Source: Cyanobacteriota bacterium (GTDB lineage Bacteria; Cyanobacteriota; Cyanobacteriia; Leptolyngbyales; Leptolyngbyaceae). From it: a DNA stretch of 57,291 nucleotides. The translations under genes and the position numbers were made by a program. The notes below the pieces were generated by a model. It searched no databases and was not told the origin of the DNA. It worked only from the letters and a program-made list of their open reading frames with translations. This document shows, piece by piece, positions 1 through 14,683 of this stretch. Position 1 is the stretch's first letter. Each line of letters starts with the position of its first letter. The DNA is taken from the NCBI GenBank assembly GCA_026389365.1, contig JAPLHZ010000333.1, positions 1 through 57,291 of the forward strand. The letters run 5' to 3'.

Positions 1-1226
1 CATCTCCAAAAGCATTGCATTTAGAAAAGTTGGAAAAGGAAGAATTACAACAGATAATCAATCGACACAGTACATCGCAGCAAATAGCCCAACGAGCAAA
101 GATAGTTGTTTTAGCCTCTCAAGGATACAGTCAAGCAATGATAGCGCGGGAATTAGATATCAGCCGCAAAAGTGCCCGATTGTGGCGAGACCGATGGGTG
201 TCGGGACGGGAAAAAGACATGTCCGTGTTGGATTGTTTGAAAGATGCCGAGCGTTCGGGTACACCGCCGACATTCGAGCTTGAGCAAATCATGCACTTAT
301 TTGCAATCGCCTGTGAAAGTCCAGAGGAAAGTGGTCGCCCCATCAGCCAATGGACAAGTCGCGAACTCGCCGACGAAATGATCCAACGGGGGATAGTGAC
401 CACGATATCACCGAGGCACGTTGGACGCTTACTTGCCGAAGCAGATATCAAACCGCACCAATCAGGTTACTGACTGAATCCAGCCCCCGACCCATTGTTT
501 GATCAAAAAGTAACAGCGATTACTGACAATTACTTAAATGCAATAGAGCGAGCCGCATTAGGTGAACAAACCATCAGTCTTGATGAAATGACGGGTATCC
601 AAGCCCTTGAACGCAAATATCCTGACAAGCCCTTGGAGCCTGGCAAGATTCAACGCCGCGAGTTTGAATATATTCGACATGGTACGCAAACCTTAATCGC
701 CAGTTTTGATGTCGCCACGGGTTTAGTCATCAAAGCATCTGTGGGCGATACACGTACTGAAGTTGACTATCTTGAGCATGTCCAACAAACGATAGACACT
801 AACCCTAATGCTACCAAATGGCATTTAGTCATGGATTGCCTCAATACTCATCAATCTGAGTCCCTCGTTCGCTATGTTGCCCAAGTCGAAGGATTGGAGA
901 TTGATTTGGGTATCAAGGGTAAGAGCGGTATCCTTAAATCTATGCAGACAAGGACTGATTTCTTAACCGACAAAACTCATCGTATTGTCTTTTATTTTAC
1001 TCCCAAGCATTGTTCTTGGCTTAATCAGATTGAGATTTGGTTTGGCATCTTGATGCGTAAGTTACTCAGACGCGGTAACTTTATCTCTCAAGCCGATCTG
1101 AAGTCTCGCATTATCTTGTTTATTGACTACTTCAACCGCACTATGGCTAAGCCTTTTAAATGGACTTATAAAGGTAAGGCTTTAGCCGTCTAAAGTTTGT
1201 TCCTTCACTTTAGCCGCCTTGTACTA
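1..1226 (+). mobile_element. IS630-family insertion sequence (left end outside window)
   Basis: The element runs in from the left edge and ends near 1222-1226, where transposase-derived sequence stops and DUF262 sequence resumes in the same frame. IS630 elements insert at TA dinucleotides. The junction stretch gtactacgta holds several TA steps, and the TA at 1225-1226 best restores the host codon order (inferred R-L-R-T-F-Q-R-F). I could not check the terminal inverted repeat because the left end is missing. Confidence 0.7.
3..1193 (+). pseudogene. IS630-family transposase with in-frame stop codon
   Basis: One frame stays open from the window edge to 1193 except for a single TGA at 471-473, which the ORF track shows as two ORFs. 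The N-terminal part is a helix-turn-helix (SQAMIARELDISRKSARLWR). The C-terminal part carries the DDE residues: D in SLDEMTGIQALE, D in LVMDCLNTH and E in SWLNQIEIWFG. The family usually has Y-W-L-N at the break, so TGG to TGA is the likely lesion. About 397 codons are present, close to the usual single-ORF length. The start lies at or left of the window edge because the frame is open upstream of the TTG at 15. The copy is probably dead unless the stop is read through. Confidence 0.85.
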
Positions 1227-2012
1227 CGTACTTTTCAAAGGTTTCTTAATGATGATTTCCCATTAAGAAATTTACAGTTACGTGATGATGTTAACGATAA
1301 GAAGTACTCGGAGCTTTCTCAGAGAGATAGAGATGAGATAAGAAAGCGCTCTATCAGAGCTATTGTGATTTTGAATGAATCAGACGAAGAAGTAAAATAT
1401 GAAGTATTTGAACGCCTAAATCTCGGAAGCATCCAGTTAACTCCACAGGAAATAAGAAATAACACCTTAAGAGGAGATTTCAATGATTTACTCAAAGAAC
1501 TAGCAAGTGAAAAATTGTTCAAGGATATGTTGAATCTAAAGCTAAAGAAAGATGACACAAATATGGCACACGAAGAGCTAGTCCTTCGATTTTTTGCGTA
1601 TCATGACAGTGGATATAAACGGACTGAAAATCTGTCATATTTTCTTACTGAATATATGAAGGAAAATCAAAACCCTACTAAAGATAAGATAAGAACTCTT
1701 AGAGAATTATTCATTGGAACAATCCAATTAGTATACAAATACCTTGGTGAAAAAGCATTTTCAAATTTTGGTGAAAAAGTGGGGAAATGGGCTAGCGTTA
1801 CTAATCGTTCTTTATATGATGCTGAAATGTTAGCATTTTCTGATTTTATTGGGAAAGAGATTACGATTTCTAGTGATAATTTCGTTAGAAAGCTTGAAGA
1901 ATTGATGGCTGACCCAGAATTCAAAAAAAGTTTACATTCTCAAGCTGGCGGAACAATGATAGAAAAGAGAGTGAATGAGATCAAAAAAATTATATCTAAT
2001 TCGGAATTATAA
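1227..2012 (+). pseudogene. DUF262 protein, C-terminal part cut off by IS630
   Basis: From about codon 11 of the ORF starting at 1197, the sequence matches the middle and end of DUF262 proteins: LRTFQRFLN directly after where DGQQR should be, then FERLNLGSIQLTPQEIRNN, then a helical C-terminal half. The conserved N-terminal half (IPxFQRxYVW and the DGQQR active-site region of this ParB/sulfiredoxin-like fold) is missing because the IS lies exactly there. The TTG at 1197 belongs to IS sequence. The remaining frame is undamaged, so insertion looks recent. The gene ends 3 nt before a HEPN gene, the same order as the intact pair at 11-12.9 kb. The fragment is unlikely to be active. Confidence 0.8.
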
Positions 2013-2015
2013 ATT

Positions 2016-2561
2016 ATGTATGATGGGCAATCTAGGATTTTAGATGTTCTTAGGGCTTTTACCGGAAGGGAAGGAGAGCCTAAGAATGAAGTCGAGTCAT
2101 ACATGTTGAAAGCAATGTGGTTAATGATGCTTTCAGAATTTGAGGCAAGTGTGAAGCAAAAAGCTGAAAACTATATCGATAAAATAAAAAAGAAGGATAT
2201 TTCTAATATCCACATATGTCTTTTAATAAGACATTTTCATGGCAAATCTGAAGATACATTGACGGCAGATAAAATTGTGGGATTTTACAGTAAAGATCCA
2301 AGAGAAATAAGTTATCGAAACTTCACTAAGGATAAGGTTCCTAAATATAAAACTAAGGCCGTCGAGAAGCTTTTTAATAACATGGGAATTTTTTTTACAT
2401 CTGATGAACTTATCTCATTATCGATTCTGGATAGTGTCGCATCAACTAGAGACTCCATAGCTCACGGAGACATTGATGTCCAAATAACTAGAAAAGAATT
2501 AGAAGAGCAGCTTCACAATCTCAGTGAACTTGCAAAAATGCTAGAGGAAAAGCTGATCTAA
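2016..2561 (+). CDS. HEPN-domain protein (MAE_28990-like), DUF262 partner
   Basis: This 181-residue, mostly helical protein carries R-D-S-I-A-H near residue 148, which fits the R-x4-H motif of HEPN ribonucleases. HEPN proteins of this kind act as RNases or toxin subunits in defence and toxin-antitoxin loci. Members resembling MAE_28990/MAE_18760 often stand next to DUF262 genes. The start is ATG, 3 nt after the truncated DUF262 gene, so the two were co-transcribed. It is A+T rich compared with asnS downstream, which suggests transfer. Family assignment rests on motif, size and neighbourhood; substrate is unknown. Confidence 0.6.
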   Translation: MYDGQSRILDVLRAFTGREGEPKNEVESYMLKAMWLMMLSEFEASVKQKAENYIDKIKKKDISNIHICLLIRHFHGKSEDTLTADKIVGFYSKDPREISYRNFTKDKVPKYKTKAVEKLFNNMGIFFTSDELISLSILDSVASTRDSIAHGDIDVQITRKELEEQLHNLSELAKMLEEKLI

Positions 2562-10302: not shown

Positions 10303-10662
10303 ATGATGGCTCCCTCGCAAATACTGAGACTAATGCAACGAATTCAGGTCGATAAATGGCCAATAGTATTGTTTCTATTGGCTTGTGTTTCTATCGGGAA
10401 CCCAGGAGTTCAGGCCGCTGAATTGCCTGCAATCGAGCCGGATTTGCCTGAAGAGGTGCTGCGATCGGAGATCCTACTGGATGGTCGATCGCCATTCGAT
10501 GGAAAACGGCTGACGGCGACGGAATATGCAGAGTTGCGACAGGAGATTGAACAGGCGAACGAGGTAGAGCCTCAACTCGCGTCCCAGATTCGGAGATTGG
10601 TGGGACTGATTAAATTTCGGAAGTTTATTAAACAGGTTTTACCGATCGTGCCGATTAAGTAG
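10303..10662 (+). CDS. Small secreted conserved cyanobacterial protein
   Basis: I start at the ATG at 10303 (MMAPSQILRLMQR), since the longer ORF from 10174 reads through sequence that looks non-coding. A hydrophobic segment (WPIVLFLLACVSIG) followed by a VQAAE site suggests Sec export. The mature part has the pattern EEVLRSEILLDGRSPFDGKRLTATEYAEL, which I recognise as recurring in cyanobacterial secreted proteins, and a basic C terminus (KFRKFIKQVLP). The role is unknown. The product is about 119 residues and presumably periplasmic. Confidence 0.65.
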   Translation: MMAPSQILRLMQRIQVDKWPIVLFLLACVSIGNPGVQAAELPAIEPDLPEEVLRSEILLDGRSPFDGKRLTATEYAELRQEIEQANEVEPQLASQIRRLVGLIKFRKFIKQVLPIVPIK

Positions 10663-11041
10663 TTTGCATAGGCGACAGGATTTGAAAGGGAAGAAAAATG
10701 GTGGATACGTTATCAATAATATTATTCGTTCGCGTCTTTTCATGCTAGGGAAATTACACTACTAACGATCGTACAGATTCAACAGCTCTGCGATCGCTCT
10801 TGATACAGGTGAAGCTCCCGCCTCAATCATTCAGTGAATAGAGCCGATCGTTGCCAAATTATGGCGAATTTGATGATTTTATATTTAGATTTTTTAAGGG
10901 GATTTAAGAGCGATCGATTGTAGGATAACAAATAGTGTGTAGATGTTGGGCTAATTTATCTACAATAAGAATTAATTTATTTCATTGTTTCGACAAAGAT
11001 AATCTGCATTTTTTATTGGTAGTTAGAACATAATTGTTCGC
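10663..11041. other. Intergenic region upstream of DUF262 gene
   Basis: No gene is seen here. The last 150 bases are strongly A+T rich and lead into the palindrome and start of the DUF262-HEPN pair. Several GCGATCGC-like HIP1 variants occur in the first half, and the base composition changes sharply around 10860. Confidence 0.5.
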
Positions 11042-11062
11042 TATAATTATGGTGTAATTATA
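11042..11062. promoter_or_regulatory. Perfect palindrome before DUF262-HEPN pair
   Basis: The sequence tataatta-tggtg-taattata has 8-bp arms around a 5-nt centre and lies 24 nt before the DUF262 ATG. It overlaps a TATAAT-like -10 hexamer, so a repressor bound here would block transcription. Autoregulation by one of the two products is an inference. Confidence 0.5.
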
Positions 11063-11085
11063 AGAAGTGTACATGGAAGCTCAGA

Positions 11086-12312
11086 ATGACAAATCTAACA
11101 GATGTAGAAATTCAAGAAGATACTGCAACACTTCCAGCGCAGTCTGACGAGACTGAGTCAATCAAGTGGTTTGATAATGATCCTCAGGTTGAAGAACTAT
11201 ACTCAATTAATGAATATGAGATAACAACTTCGGCTAATGATTTTAATATCAAGACGCTGTATGACTTTATAAAGTCTGGAGCTATAAATATTCCAGGGTT
11301 TCAACGAAATTATGTTTGGGATATAAAAAGAGCGTCGAAACTCATTGAATCAATAATTATTGGTTTACCGATTCCGCAAATTTTTCTTTACCAAGAGTCG
11401 AGAAACAAGTTTTTAGTGATAGATGGACAACAGCGTTTAATGTCTCTCTATTATTTTATTGAGCAACGCTTTCCAAAAGATGGGAAGAGAGCAGTTCTAA
11501 GACAGATTTTCGAGGAGCATGGGAAGATTCCGGATGTTATTCTGGGAGATGATAATTATTTTACAAAATTTAATCTGCAACTTCCTTCCACTTTGCCAAA
11601 CCAGCCTAACAAGCTAAATAAAATTAATTATGCAACTTTGGACGAATATAAAATTTCATTTGATTTACGTGCTATTAGAAATATTATCATAAAGCAGAAT
11701 TTCCCAGAAGAGGATGATTCATGCATCTATGAAATTTTTAATCGTTTAAACTCTGGAGGTATCAATCTGAAACCTCAAGAAATCAGAACGAGTTTGTATT
11801 ATTCAAATTTTTACAATATGTTGTATCGGCTGAATAGTCTTCCAGACTGGCGGAGAATAATCGGTGTCGAAGAGCCAGATTTAAATATGAAAGATATTGA
11901 AACTCTATTGAGAGGATTTGCAATGTTAATTGAACGTGAACAATATCAGTCATCTATGGTCAAGTTTCTTAATAGTTTTTCCAAAAACTGTAAGAAATTG
12001 AACGATGAGCAGATACATTATCTTGAAAAACTTTTTCATTCTTTTCTAGAATCTTGCTCAATCTTGCCAGATAAAGCATTTTATCGGAAGACAACAAACA
12101 AATTTAATATATCTATCTTTGAAGCAGTTTTTGTCGCTCAATGTGCAAGTTCTTTTGAAGCCCGTGGACTTGTCGAACGAAAGATTGATCCTGGAAAACT
12201 TGAAGAGCTGAAAAGTGATTTGGAGTTTGTTGAAGCAATTCAATCTCAAACTACTAGCAAACAAAATGTTAGTAAGAGATTGGAAAAAGCTACGAGTATT
12301 CTATTTAGTTAA
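11086..12312 (+). CDS. DUF262 protein (GmrSD N-domain/ParB-like), intact
   Basis: This 408-residue protein has the full DUF262 core: FNIKTLYDFIKSGAINIPGFQRNYVWD near residue 53, FLVIDGQQRLMSLYYF near residue 107, and FNRLNSGGINLKPQEIR near residue 217. DUF262 is a ParB/sulfiredoxin-like fold that binds or hydrolyses nucleotides and forms the GmrS half of GmrSD type IV restriction systems. The HNH GmrD domain (DUF1524) is absent; a helical C-terminal half takes its place. It is followed after 12 nt by a HEPN gene, so a two-subunit defence or toxin-antitoxin module is likely. A+T content is clearly above that of the neighbouring core genes, a sign of transfer. Confidence 0.82.
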   Translation: MTNLTDVEIQEDTATLPAQSDETESIKWFDNDPQVEELYSINEYEITTSANDFNIKTLYDFIKSGAINIPGFQRNYVWDIKRASKLIESIIIGLPIPQIFLYQESRNKFLVIDGQQRLMSLYYFIEQRFPKDGKRAVLRQIFEEHGKIPDVILGDDNYFTKFNLQLPSTLPNQPNKLNKINYATLDEYKISFDLRAIRNIIIKQNFPEEDDSCIYEIFNRLNSGGINLKPQEIRTSLYYSNFYNMLYRLNSLPDWRRIIGVEEPDLNMKDIETLLRGFAMLIEREQYQSSMVKFLNSFSKNCKKLNDEQIHYLEKLFHSFLESCSILPDKAFYRKTTNKFNISIFEAVFVAQCASSFEARGLVERKIDPGKLEELKSDLEFVEAIQSQTTSKQNVSKRLEKATSILFS

Positions 12313-12324
12313 TTGTAATCTGCT

Positions 12325-12852
12325 ATGACAAGTGAAAGTATTGTTGACCGGATCTATCGAGATAATTTAGATATTCTAATATTTTTGGAGGAAAAAAATG
12401 AGCCATCTTTTGTGATTCAATTTAATACACTTTTCACTAAAACTTTATTACTTTCAGCGGCCAGCTATTTTGAATATGAGATTTGTAGAATGGTTAGAGC
12501 ATTCATTAAGCATAAAGCTCAGAATGATGAATGTATCATTGCAATAGTTAACCAGAAGGCAATTGATAGGCAGTATCATACATATTTTGACTGGACTGGA
12601 AGGAATGCAAATAAGTTTTTTTCTTTATTTGGACCCACCTTTAAGGCGGACCGAGTGCAAGACATAAAGAATAATCCTGATTTAGAACTTGCAATCAAGT
12701 CATTTCTAGAATTAGGAGATGAGCGTAATAAGTTAGTACATCAAAACTTTGCAGATTGCACTATACAAAAAACGGCGAAGGAAGTATATGACCTTTATCA
12801 ACAAGCAGCAAAATTCATAGATTTTTTAGATAGTCAATTAAGTAGTTTATAG
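12325..12852 (+). CDS. HEPN-domain protein, DUF262 partner
   Basis: This 175-residue helical protein contains E-R-N-K-L-V-H-Q near residue 135, matching the R-x4-H active-site motif of HEPN RNases. The N-terminal part (LLLSAASYFEYEICRMVRAF) resembles RiboL-PSP-HEPN/MAE_28990-type proteins. It starts with ATG 12 nt after the DUF262 stop and is surely co-transcribed with it. The arrangement mirrors the damaged pair at 1.2-2.6 kb, but the two HEPN proteins differ much in sequence, so they are separate acquisitions rather than a recent duplication. Target RNA and trigger are unknown. Confidence 0.65.
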   Translation: MTSESIVDRIYRDNLDILIFLEEKNEPSFVIQFNTLFTKTLLLSAASYFEYEICRMVRAFIKHKAQNDECIIAIVNQKAIDRQYHTYFDWTGRNANKFFSLFGPTFKADRVQDIKNNPDLELAIKSFLELGDERNKLVHQNFADCTIQKTAKEVYDLYQQAAKFIDFLDSQLSSL

Positions 12853-13108: not shown

Positions 13109-13888
13109 ATGCGATCGCCCTTCCCAGGAATGGACCCCTACCTCGAAGACCCCATTTTTTGGTCTTCGTTTCATAACCGATTTTTAGTAGCGATCGCCGA
13201 TGCCATTGCCCCTCTTCTTCAGCCAAAATACTATGTTGAAATTGAAGCTAGAACTTACATTGATAACGGGGAAGATGAGGTCTTAATCGGGATTCCGGAT
13301 ACCGTCGTCCTCGCACGCACGCAGCCAAATCACTCCCCCATCTCGCAATCATCCAGCTCAACCGCCGTCCAAACCAAACCTCAAAAGGTGGAAATTCCAA
13401 TAGATCTCGAACGAAAAGAGCGTTATCTTCAAGTCCGCGAAATCGGAACCGATGCCGTAATCACCGCGATCGAACTCCTCTCTCCAACCAACAAAAGGAC
13501 GGGCGAAGGTCGAGACATTTATAAAGAAAAACGCCGTAGCATCTTATCCAGTCGCTCTCATCTCGTCGAACTTGATTTTCTACGTTCCGGAAATCCCATG
13601 ACCATGCGAGGAGTCACTGGAAGAATGGACTACCGAATCCTAGTCAGCCGAGCCAATCATCGTCCAACTGCTGATTTGTATGGATTTACCCTAAGAGATC
13701 AAATTCCGACCTTCAGCCTACCCCTACAAGACGCTGACGAATCATTAACAGTTGATCTCCAGACTATCTTTAATGGGGTCTACGATCGCAGTAGTTATCG
13801 ATCGCGCCTAAATTACCAGAATCCCGTCCCGCCTCCAGCCCTCCCCGATCCCGATCGCCTTTGGGTTCAAGAATTATTAAAGTCCTAA
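13109..13888 (+). CDS. DUF4058 family protein
   Basis: The start MRSPFPGMDPYLEDPIFW is the DUF4058 hallmark. The middle shows RYLQVREIGTDAVITAIELLSPTNKR, LVELDFLRSG and DYRILVSRANHRPTADLY, all typical. The family fold has been linked to PD-(D/E)XK-like nucleases, but the function is not established. At 259 residues it is full length. The ATG start agrees with family members. It converges with a second DUF4058 gene 24 nt downstream; the two share the same motif order, so they are paralogues. Confidence 0.85.
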   Translation: MRSPFPGMDPYLEDPIFWSSFHNRFLVAIADAIAPLLQPKYYVEIEARTYIDNGEDEVLIGIPDTVVLARTQPNHSPISQSSSSTAVQTKPQKVEIPIDLERKERYLQVREIGTDAVITAIELLSPTNKRTGEGRDIYKEKRRSILSSRSHLVELDFLRSGNPMTMRGVTGRMDYRILVSRANHRPTADLYGFTLRDQIPTFSLPLQDADESLTVDLQTIFNGVYDRSSYRSRLNYQNPVPPPALPDPDRLWVQELLKS

Positions 13889-13912: not shown

Positions 13913-14683
13913 CTAGGTCATCGCCCCTAATAACCAATCGCGATCGATGCCTTCAGCCATGGGAATACATCGGTTGATAGCTTCGGGGGAATAATCGATC
14001 GAAAGGTCGAGTCTAGCGCGATCGTACATTTCATTCAGGAGGCGTTGGAGATCGACAATCGGTTCGATATCTCGCGTTTTCAATGGAATGGGAAATGCTG
14101 GAATAGGTTCGGGAAGATTGAACGCAAAAAGGTCAGCGTTGGGACGGAGGGCGCTGCGACTGACTAAAATTCGATAGTGACTGGCTGTTTCTCCTGCCAT
14201 CGGCATTAGTGTTCCCGATCGCAACAAATCGATCTCGACTAAATTCGTCATGGAACTCAAGATTTTAGTTCGCTTAGCTTCATACAACGATCGCCCTTTC
14301 GACGATCGTTTATTCGCGGGCGATAAAACCTCGATCACTGTCACTAGTTCACGAGTCGCAATTTCTCGAATTTCTAAGTATCGTTCTTTAACTTCCCAAG
14401 GCATGGGCAACTGCACCTGTTGCGGTTTCACCAGCGTGGCAGTTGCTATGGAAAATGAAGCTATCGTGTCACGATCGGTTTTGACTCCAATGTCGGCAAT
14501 GCCCACCAAACTTTGGGGATCATCGACACTCATGTAAACCCGTTGTGCAATCGCGACGCGGTATTTTGAAGCGATCGTCCCTGCAATCTCATCGGCAATG
14601 CTAATGATTAACCGATTGTGAACCTGATGCCAAAGCTCAGGATGCTCCAAATAGAGATTCATGCCAGGGAAGGGATTTTGCAT
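13913..14683 (-). CDS. DUF4058 family protein (second copy)
   Basis: The start MQNPFPGMNLYLEHPELWHQVHNRL and the later RYLEIREIATRELVTVIEVLSPANKR, LVEIDLLRSG and HYRILVSRSALRPNADLF match DUF4058 along the entire length of 256 residues. It points toward the first DUF4058 gene and shares its length and motif order. Sequence identity between the two is moderate, which argues for an old inverted duplication or independent arrival. Function is unknown. Confidence 0.85.
   Translation of the reverse strand: MQNPFPGMNLYLEHPELWHQVHNRLIISIADEIAGTIASKYRVAIAQRVYMSVDDPQSLVGIADIGVKTDRDTIASFSIATATLVKPQQVQLPMPWEVKERYLEIREIATRELVTVIEVLSPANKRSSKGRSLYEAKRTKILSSMTNLVEIDLLRSGTLMPMAGETASHYRILVSRSALRPNADLFAFNLPEPIPAFPIPLKTRDIEPIVDLQRLLNEMYDRARLDLSIDYSPEAINRCIPMAEGIDRDWLLGAMT

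Follow-up and report, generated by a model that had tools for sequence, protein, structure and literature searches.

We found that the window, i.e. the whole stretch of 57,291 nucleotides analysed here from a cyanobacterium of the Leptolyngbyaceae (contig JAPLHZ010000333.1), carries a genuine and conserved two-gene module in which a DUF262 gene is followed directly by a gene for a HEPN protein, and which, judging from its sequence, is probably an active defence module. With a probability of roughly two in three, we read it as a horizontally acquired module directed against phages or other mobile elements, where DUF262 would be a nucleotide-driven sensor of foreign DNA that licenses a HEPN RNase. 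A DUF262 protein of the GmrS/BrxU/SspE type would bind and hydrolyse NTP upon recognising a sign of foreign DNA, and the conformational change driven by the nucleotide would license the co-translated HEPN partner, a release of effector activity that we propose by analogy with SspE and BrxU. The HEPN protein, a predicted metal-independent RNase, would then cut RNA, and either phage propagation would be stopped or the host cell stalled. We infer the activating role of DUF262, the trigger that it would sense, the cleavage of RNA, and the direct or abortive form that protection may take. A nucleotide-dependent sensor controlling an RNase, as put forward in the original prediction, is the best-supported reading. 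The module is conserved, its motif is kept, and the co-occurrence of the two families is massive.

Co-occurrence was assessed through two independent profile searches (PF18735 for HEPN and profile PDLC03877 for DUF262) over the same 292 cyanobacterial genomes, which provided 133 HEPN and 150 DUF262 matches. A HEPN gene lies directly 3' of a DUF262 gene in 95 of the 133 cases, spread over 52 of the 292 genomes, against a chance expectation of 0.06 neighbouring pairs, and none of these 95 pairs is in reversed order or on opposite strands. The linkage is tight, with gaps of 20 nt or less in 86 of the 89 pairs that were fully read and a 4-nt overlap as the commonest arrangement. The two partners also appear to diverge together, their distance matrices being correlated with a Mantel r of 0.94 (permutation maximum 0.06), a value to which shared ancestry adds. 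The proposed pairing of the two families is therefore borne out across genomes. A single-protein search of 144 relatives returned the copy of the window only, because the clade is patchy, and profile searches were required to reveal the pairing.

The module is mobile as well as patchily distributed. In IMG/VR, a HEPN gene with the RX4H motif follows 23 of 24 close homologues of the window DUF262, the remaining one being cut by the contig end. Phages and plasmids from several phyla carry the pair: it is present on the Akkermansia phage Chambord and on plasmids of Exiguobacterium, Salmonella (IncX), Hymenobacter, Kocuria, Phaeobacter, and Rhodococcus. In two Peduoviridae phages, the HEPN that accompanies DUF262 is of the same Pfam family or of a sister one. 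A separate clade of cyanobacterial pairs (e.g. the L146-L172 group) includes phage P24B2, whose partner is a MAE_28990-type HEPN, and 17 of 22 sampled partners from this clade match both the MAE_28990 Pfam family and PF18735. On Chambord (locus L015, 2878-5688), an annotated DNA methyltransferase gene lies directly before the pair and overlaps the start of DUF262. Another annotated one is found near the pair of the Rhodococcus plasmid (L024), and ORFs that look by eye like methyltransferases lie near pairs in two viral contigs (L194, 1354-6628; L188). These neighbours may possibly link some of the pairs to the sensing of DNA modification.

Concerning the sensor candidate, no match to DUF1524/HNH (PF07510) and no other nuclease motif was found with Pfam profiles in the 408-aa protein (Table 1), which agrees with the predicted DUF262 ORF devoid of HNH. 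That the HNH part is missing, as the original prediction put it, holds in the sense of absence and not of a loss from this gene, since other members of the branch also lack HNH; the DUF262s of the window branch, of Menshen, and of PD-T4-2 are all full-length single-domain proteins whose effector is encoded by a separate gene. The AlphaFold2 model of DUF262 finds its best PDB match in BrxU (7p9k, E=2e-4), with SspE and CDP-bound ParB/Noc coming next; sequence searches of the PDB with DUF262 and with HEPN gave no solved close relative of either. The QR, DGQQR, and FxxxN motifs (Table 1) are nearly invariant among 100 homologues. In BrxU and GrwAB, QR, DGQQR, and FxxxN are required for the use of NTP and for defence (PMC8565348; PMC12137116), DGQQR being the NTP hydrolysis motif of GmrSD/BrxU/SspE/GrwAB (PMC8565348; PMC12137116) and RLFDS, with which we equate KLIES by inspection, a nucleotide-binding motif of BrxU (PMC8565348). 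Values of dN/dS against the pair of Nostoc sp. FACHB-973 (0.05 for DUF262 and 0.12 for HEPN) indicate that both genes are under purifying selection.

These features bear on a type IV-like restriction system, in which DUF262 itself would nick or bind DNA, its ParB-like domain serving as DNase, and HEPN would be an accessory subunit. The ParB-like fold has indeed been counted among endoDNase domains (PMC3710099), GrwAB is a modification-dependent system made of two genes (PMC12137116), and the methyltransferase genes beside the pair on Chambord and the Rhodococcus plasmid, together with the similar ORFs of the two viral contigs, would suit such a function. However, the DUF262 protein has neither HNH nor another nuclease motif, cleavage by BrxU and SspE sits in their DUF1524 domain (PMC10952713), and the residues that are invariant in HEPN are exactly those of an RNase active site, so that we regard this explanation as quite improbable.

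The second gene starts 12 nt after the first (spacer 12313-12324) and matches the HEPN family PF18735 well above its gathering threshold, as expected from the predicted HEPN ORF at this distance. The RNase site of HEPN proteins consists of an acidic residue in helix 2 and an Rx4-6H motif that ends helix 3 (Anantharaman et al., 2013; PMC3710099), and the helix positions of E50 and RX4H in our AlphaFold2 model, which is all-helical with a mean pLDDT of 91, agree with this description (PMC3710099). When 103 HEPN proteins, nearly all of them adjacent to a DUF262, were aligned, E50, R134, and H139 came out as the sole invariant columns in an alignment whose column identity averages 14%. The R-N-K-L-V-H stretch, pointed out beforehand as a candidate, is thus no chance occurrence, its key residues being conserved in the homologues. 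RX4H is present in 102 of the 103 partners as against 18% of shuffled sequences, and the single partner devoid of it comes from a locus whose reading frame is broken. Comparison of the model, a small helical protein, with the PDB using Foldseek gave a best E of 0.8, the HEPN toxin 7ae2 coming at rank 27 (E=4.9); as none of these matches is significant, HEPN is assigned here from the Pfam profile together with motif geometry. No PADLOC model matches the window HEPN at E<=1. Since catalysis has been lost in some HEPN families (PMC3710099), the protein could in principle be a catalytically dead subunit that binds RNA or serves as scaffold, in a module with no defence function, but the invariance of R134 and H139 despite so low an overall identity makes this highly implausible.

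Table 1. Features of the two DUF262-HEPN loci in the window (positions are those of the window).
Feature	Position	Strand	Evidence
IS630-like transposase ORFs, two frames (3-473, 495-1193), reaching the window edge	3..1193	+	family named by eye
Second DUF262, of the same family; IS-truncated relic that lacks QR and DGQQR along with the rest of its N-terminal part	1197..2012	+	NsnA model positions 118-381 only; PF03235 103-198 only
Second HEPN partner, intact ORF, R-D-S-I-A-H	2016..2561	+	PF18735 1.8e-13; motif aligned
A/T-only 8-5-8 inverted repeat before the DUF262 ORF; not judged functional	11042..11062		shuffle P=0.12
Predicted sensor/regulator of 408 aa without HNH: DUF262 (GmrSD_N, ParB/Srx-like NTPase fold)	11086..12312	+	PF03235 E=4e-32
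QR motif of DUF262, Q73-R74 (in FQRNYVW)	11302..11307	+	Q73 100%, R74 99% of 100 homologues
KLIES of DUF262 (residues 85-89), equated by inspection with BrxU RLFDS	11338..11352	+	S89 93%, otherwise T (100 homologues)
DGQQR motif of DUF262 (residues 113-117)	11422..11436	+	D113, G114, R117 invariant, Q116 99% of 100 homologues
FxxxN motif of DUF262 (F218-N222, FNRLN)	11737..11751	+	F218, R220, N222 invariant in 100 homologues
Predicted metal-independent RNase effector of 175 aa: HEPN (RiboL-PSP-HEPN)	12325..12852	+	PF18735 E=2.9e-19, 70.1 bits vs gathering 28.4
E50 codon, acidic residue in HEPN helix 2	12472..12474	+	invariant 103/103; inside model helix 27-64
R134-N-K-L-V-H139, predicted catalytic RX4H closing helix 118-139	12724..12741	+	R134, H139 invariant 103/103

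The window also includes a second pair, in which the truncated DUF262 is abutted by transposase ORFs that end just upstream of it, while HEPN keeps an intact ORF. The genome has two HEPN_RiboL-PSP genes, both within the window. Between the two pairs lie some 8 kb of housekeeping genes (asnS-clpP-rnd). Similar situations are found in two other cyanobacteria: in Nostoc sp. XA010 (L013, 8001-8528), DUF262 is deleted altogether, and in Scytonema NIES-4073 (L012, 7494-8528) it is 5'-truncated and devoid of its N-terminal half, the HEPN ORF being intact with RNKLVH in both. The XA010 and NIES-4073 loci adjoin a nif cluster. HEPN appears to be tolerated without a complete DUF262, because all three loci (XA010, NIES-4073, and window 1197-2561) keep it intact, and its retention after the loss of DUF262 favours an activating sensor over an antitoxin, although the loss of the upstream promoter may simply have left the orphan HEPN genes silent.

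The orphans bear directly on a toxin-antitoxin pair, in which DUF262 would keep a constitutively toxic HEPN RNase in check until phage attack or plasmid loss sets it free. A regulator-first order with tight and often overlapping coding would be in line with such a pair, as would its presence on plasmids and phages, and many HEPN toxins are indeed toxins of toxin-antitoxin systems (PMC3710099). Nevertheless, a HEPN with an intact site persists without a complete DUF262 at the three loci, and the intact NTPase signature of DUF262 would be superfluous for a plain antitoxin. Furthermore, the NTPase of DUF262 is tied to nuclease activity in BrxU and SspE (PMC8565348; PMC10952713), and PD-T4-2 is absent from the five toxin-antitoxin-like systems of Vassallo et al. 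(PMC9519451). We therefore consider a toxin-antitoxin pair unlikely; within the earlier suggestion of an abortive-infection or toxin-antitoxin system, it is the latter half that the three loci weaken. A DUF262 sensor that activates HEPN remains our preferred reading.

The module was probably acquired horizontally. The GC content of the pair is 33%, as compared with 44.7 +/- 3.5% for the window; three congeners do not have the module, and synteny with them stops around 10660-10694, shortly upstream of the pair, a break at which the contig of one of the three congeners also ends. The nearest intact copy is that of Nostoc sp. FACHB-973 (84% and 76% identity); next come copies from phages and plasmids, with 40-56% identity. 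Two convergent DUF4058 genes (13109-13888 and 13913-14683) immediately follow the module, past the end of congener synteny. The neighbourhood is made of housekeeping genes, and besides the second DUF262-HEPN pair the scanned window ORFs revealed no recognisable defence gene. When ten window ORFs were scanned with PADLOC, a match to MzaA was set aside as it covered the sigma-factor part only of what is an ordinary sigma-70 factor, and so was a match to GlgB.

A palindrome overlapping the promoter had also been proposed upstream of the pair. The 8-5-8 repeat does exist, with arms at 11042-11049 (TATAATTA) and 11055-11062 (TAATTATA), but a regulatory role finds no backing: the repeat is pure A/T, its like occurs in 12% of dinucleotide shuffles of the 423-nt spacer (35% GC), and no alignment of it was obtained in the nearest relative, Nostoc FACHB-973. 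The promoter scan gave no excess over shuffles and no promoter-like site on the + strand at the palindrome, which was consequently rejected as an operator or promoter. A terminator scan yielded nothing exceeding shuffles.

The architecture itself is already known, and the window pair is a divergent member of it. The PD-T4-2 operon of E. coli ECOR65 protects against T4 both in its native strain and after transfer, and plaques form again once it is deleted (Vassallo et al., 2022; PMC9519451); it has been tabulated as DUF262 plus a PF18735 HEPN (review, PMC10952713). Already in 2013, RiboL-PSP-HEPN was listed 'in operon with ParB' (Anantharaman et al.; PMC3710099), so that the HEPN family (RiboL-PSP-HEPN / MAE_28990) and its operonic link with a ParB fold were on record, yet as a table entry only, with neither an experiment nor a sensor-effector model for the pair. 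The statement that such a system has not been studied thus holds only in part: the operon and its listing are on record, and the searchable literature (subscription papers and preprints lying outside it) yielded no work on the mechanism of a DUF262-HEPN pair.

Like the window pair, PD-T4-2 is a two-gene operon with DUF262 first and a PF18735-type HEPN with RX4H second. Its cyanobacterial representatives are L226-L230, and the genes overlap or abut in its cyanobacterial homologues (L226-L229, L171, L173). However, the window DUF262 is only 22-23% identical to the cyanobacterial PD-T4-2 A proteins, and the window HEPN has no significant BLAST match with their B proteins and matches none of the three PD-T4-2_B models (PDLC04028/29/30), PDLC04028 having no match at E<=1 in the whole genome. 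In the HEPN tree, the PD-T4-2 clade (support 100/100) is separate from that of the window (100/99), which comprises the copies of Nostoc FACHB-973, Chambord, Exiguobacterium, and viral contigs, and the two are also separate in the DUF262 tree. On the strength of the profile results and the trees, the window pair is no strict PD-T4-2 and belongs to a separate and well-supported clade. Within PD-T4-2 itself, we observed by eye that the HEPN of locus L171 (58-939, minus strand; the same gene occurs in L228) continues in frame into an apparently complete RidA/endoRNase L-PSP, at the very point where the HEPN of the close homologue L173 stops. The RiboL-PSP fusion behind the PF18735 name may be a chance read-through from a defence gene into a downstream housekeeping gene.

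Among PADLOC models, the 408-aa DUF262 scores highest to NsnA (214 bits), ahead of PD-T4-2_A (PDLC04027; 139.5 bits, 3.4e-41). We take PADLOC NsnA-B-C to be Menshen, from our reading of the name 'Nsn'; a literature search on NsnA returned unrelated matches only. Menshen resembles the window pair in its full-length DUF262 devoid of HNH and in having its effector in another gene. On the other hand, true NsnA proteins form a clade of their own (18 rows, 100% SH-aLRT), and the gene that follows them codes for an AAA/OLD-type ATPase in the four loci that were read, whereas the partner in the window is a HEPN. Membership in Menshen on the basis of the higher NsnA score was thus rejected, since the window DUF262 has another partner gene and falls into another clade. 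GmrSD, BrxU, SspE, and GrwAB likewise share with the window a DUF262 with QR, DGQQR, and FxxxN, and include its best fold match, BrxU. Their effector, however, is a DUF1524 HNH nuclease, while in the window no HNH is fused or adjacent and the next gene codes for a predicted RNase.

More generally, we tentatively propose, at slightly less than even odds, that the window pair belongs to a large and mostly unannotated DUF262-HEPN family in which a sensor of foreign or modified DNA of the type IV restriction kind switches on an RNase rather than a DNA nuclease. At most 21 of the 103 HEPN partners are matched by the PADLOC PD-T4-2_B profiles, which means that most of the family, the window clade included, is missed by annotation based on PD-T4-2_B. 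If the proposal is true, this would be a DNA-sensing and RNA-cleaving immune module of which PD-T4-2 is one twig, with Menshen and GmrSD representing the same sensor coupled to other effectors. One type of DUF262 sensor is found in nature with at least three unrelated effectors, i.e. an HNH DNase (GmrSD, BrxU, SspE), an OLD-type ATPase/nuclease (Menshen), and a HEPN RNase (PD-T4-2 and the window family), which makes sensing by DUF262 and the transfer of its signal directly testable. The natural loci that have lost DUF262 and kept HEPN provide a simple discriminator between the activator and antitoxin models. The interest of the family lies in its unannotated size, in the swap of effectors behind a common sensor, and in these natural orphans.
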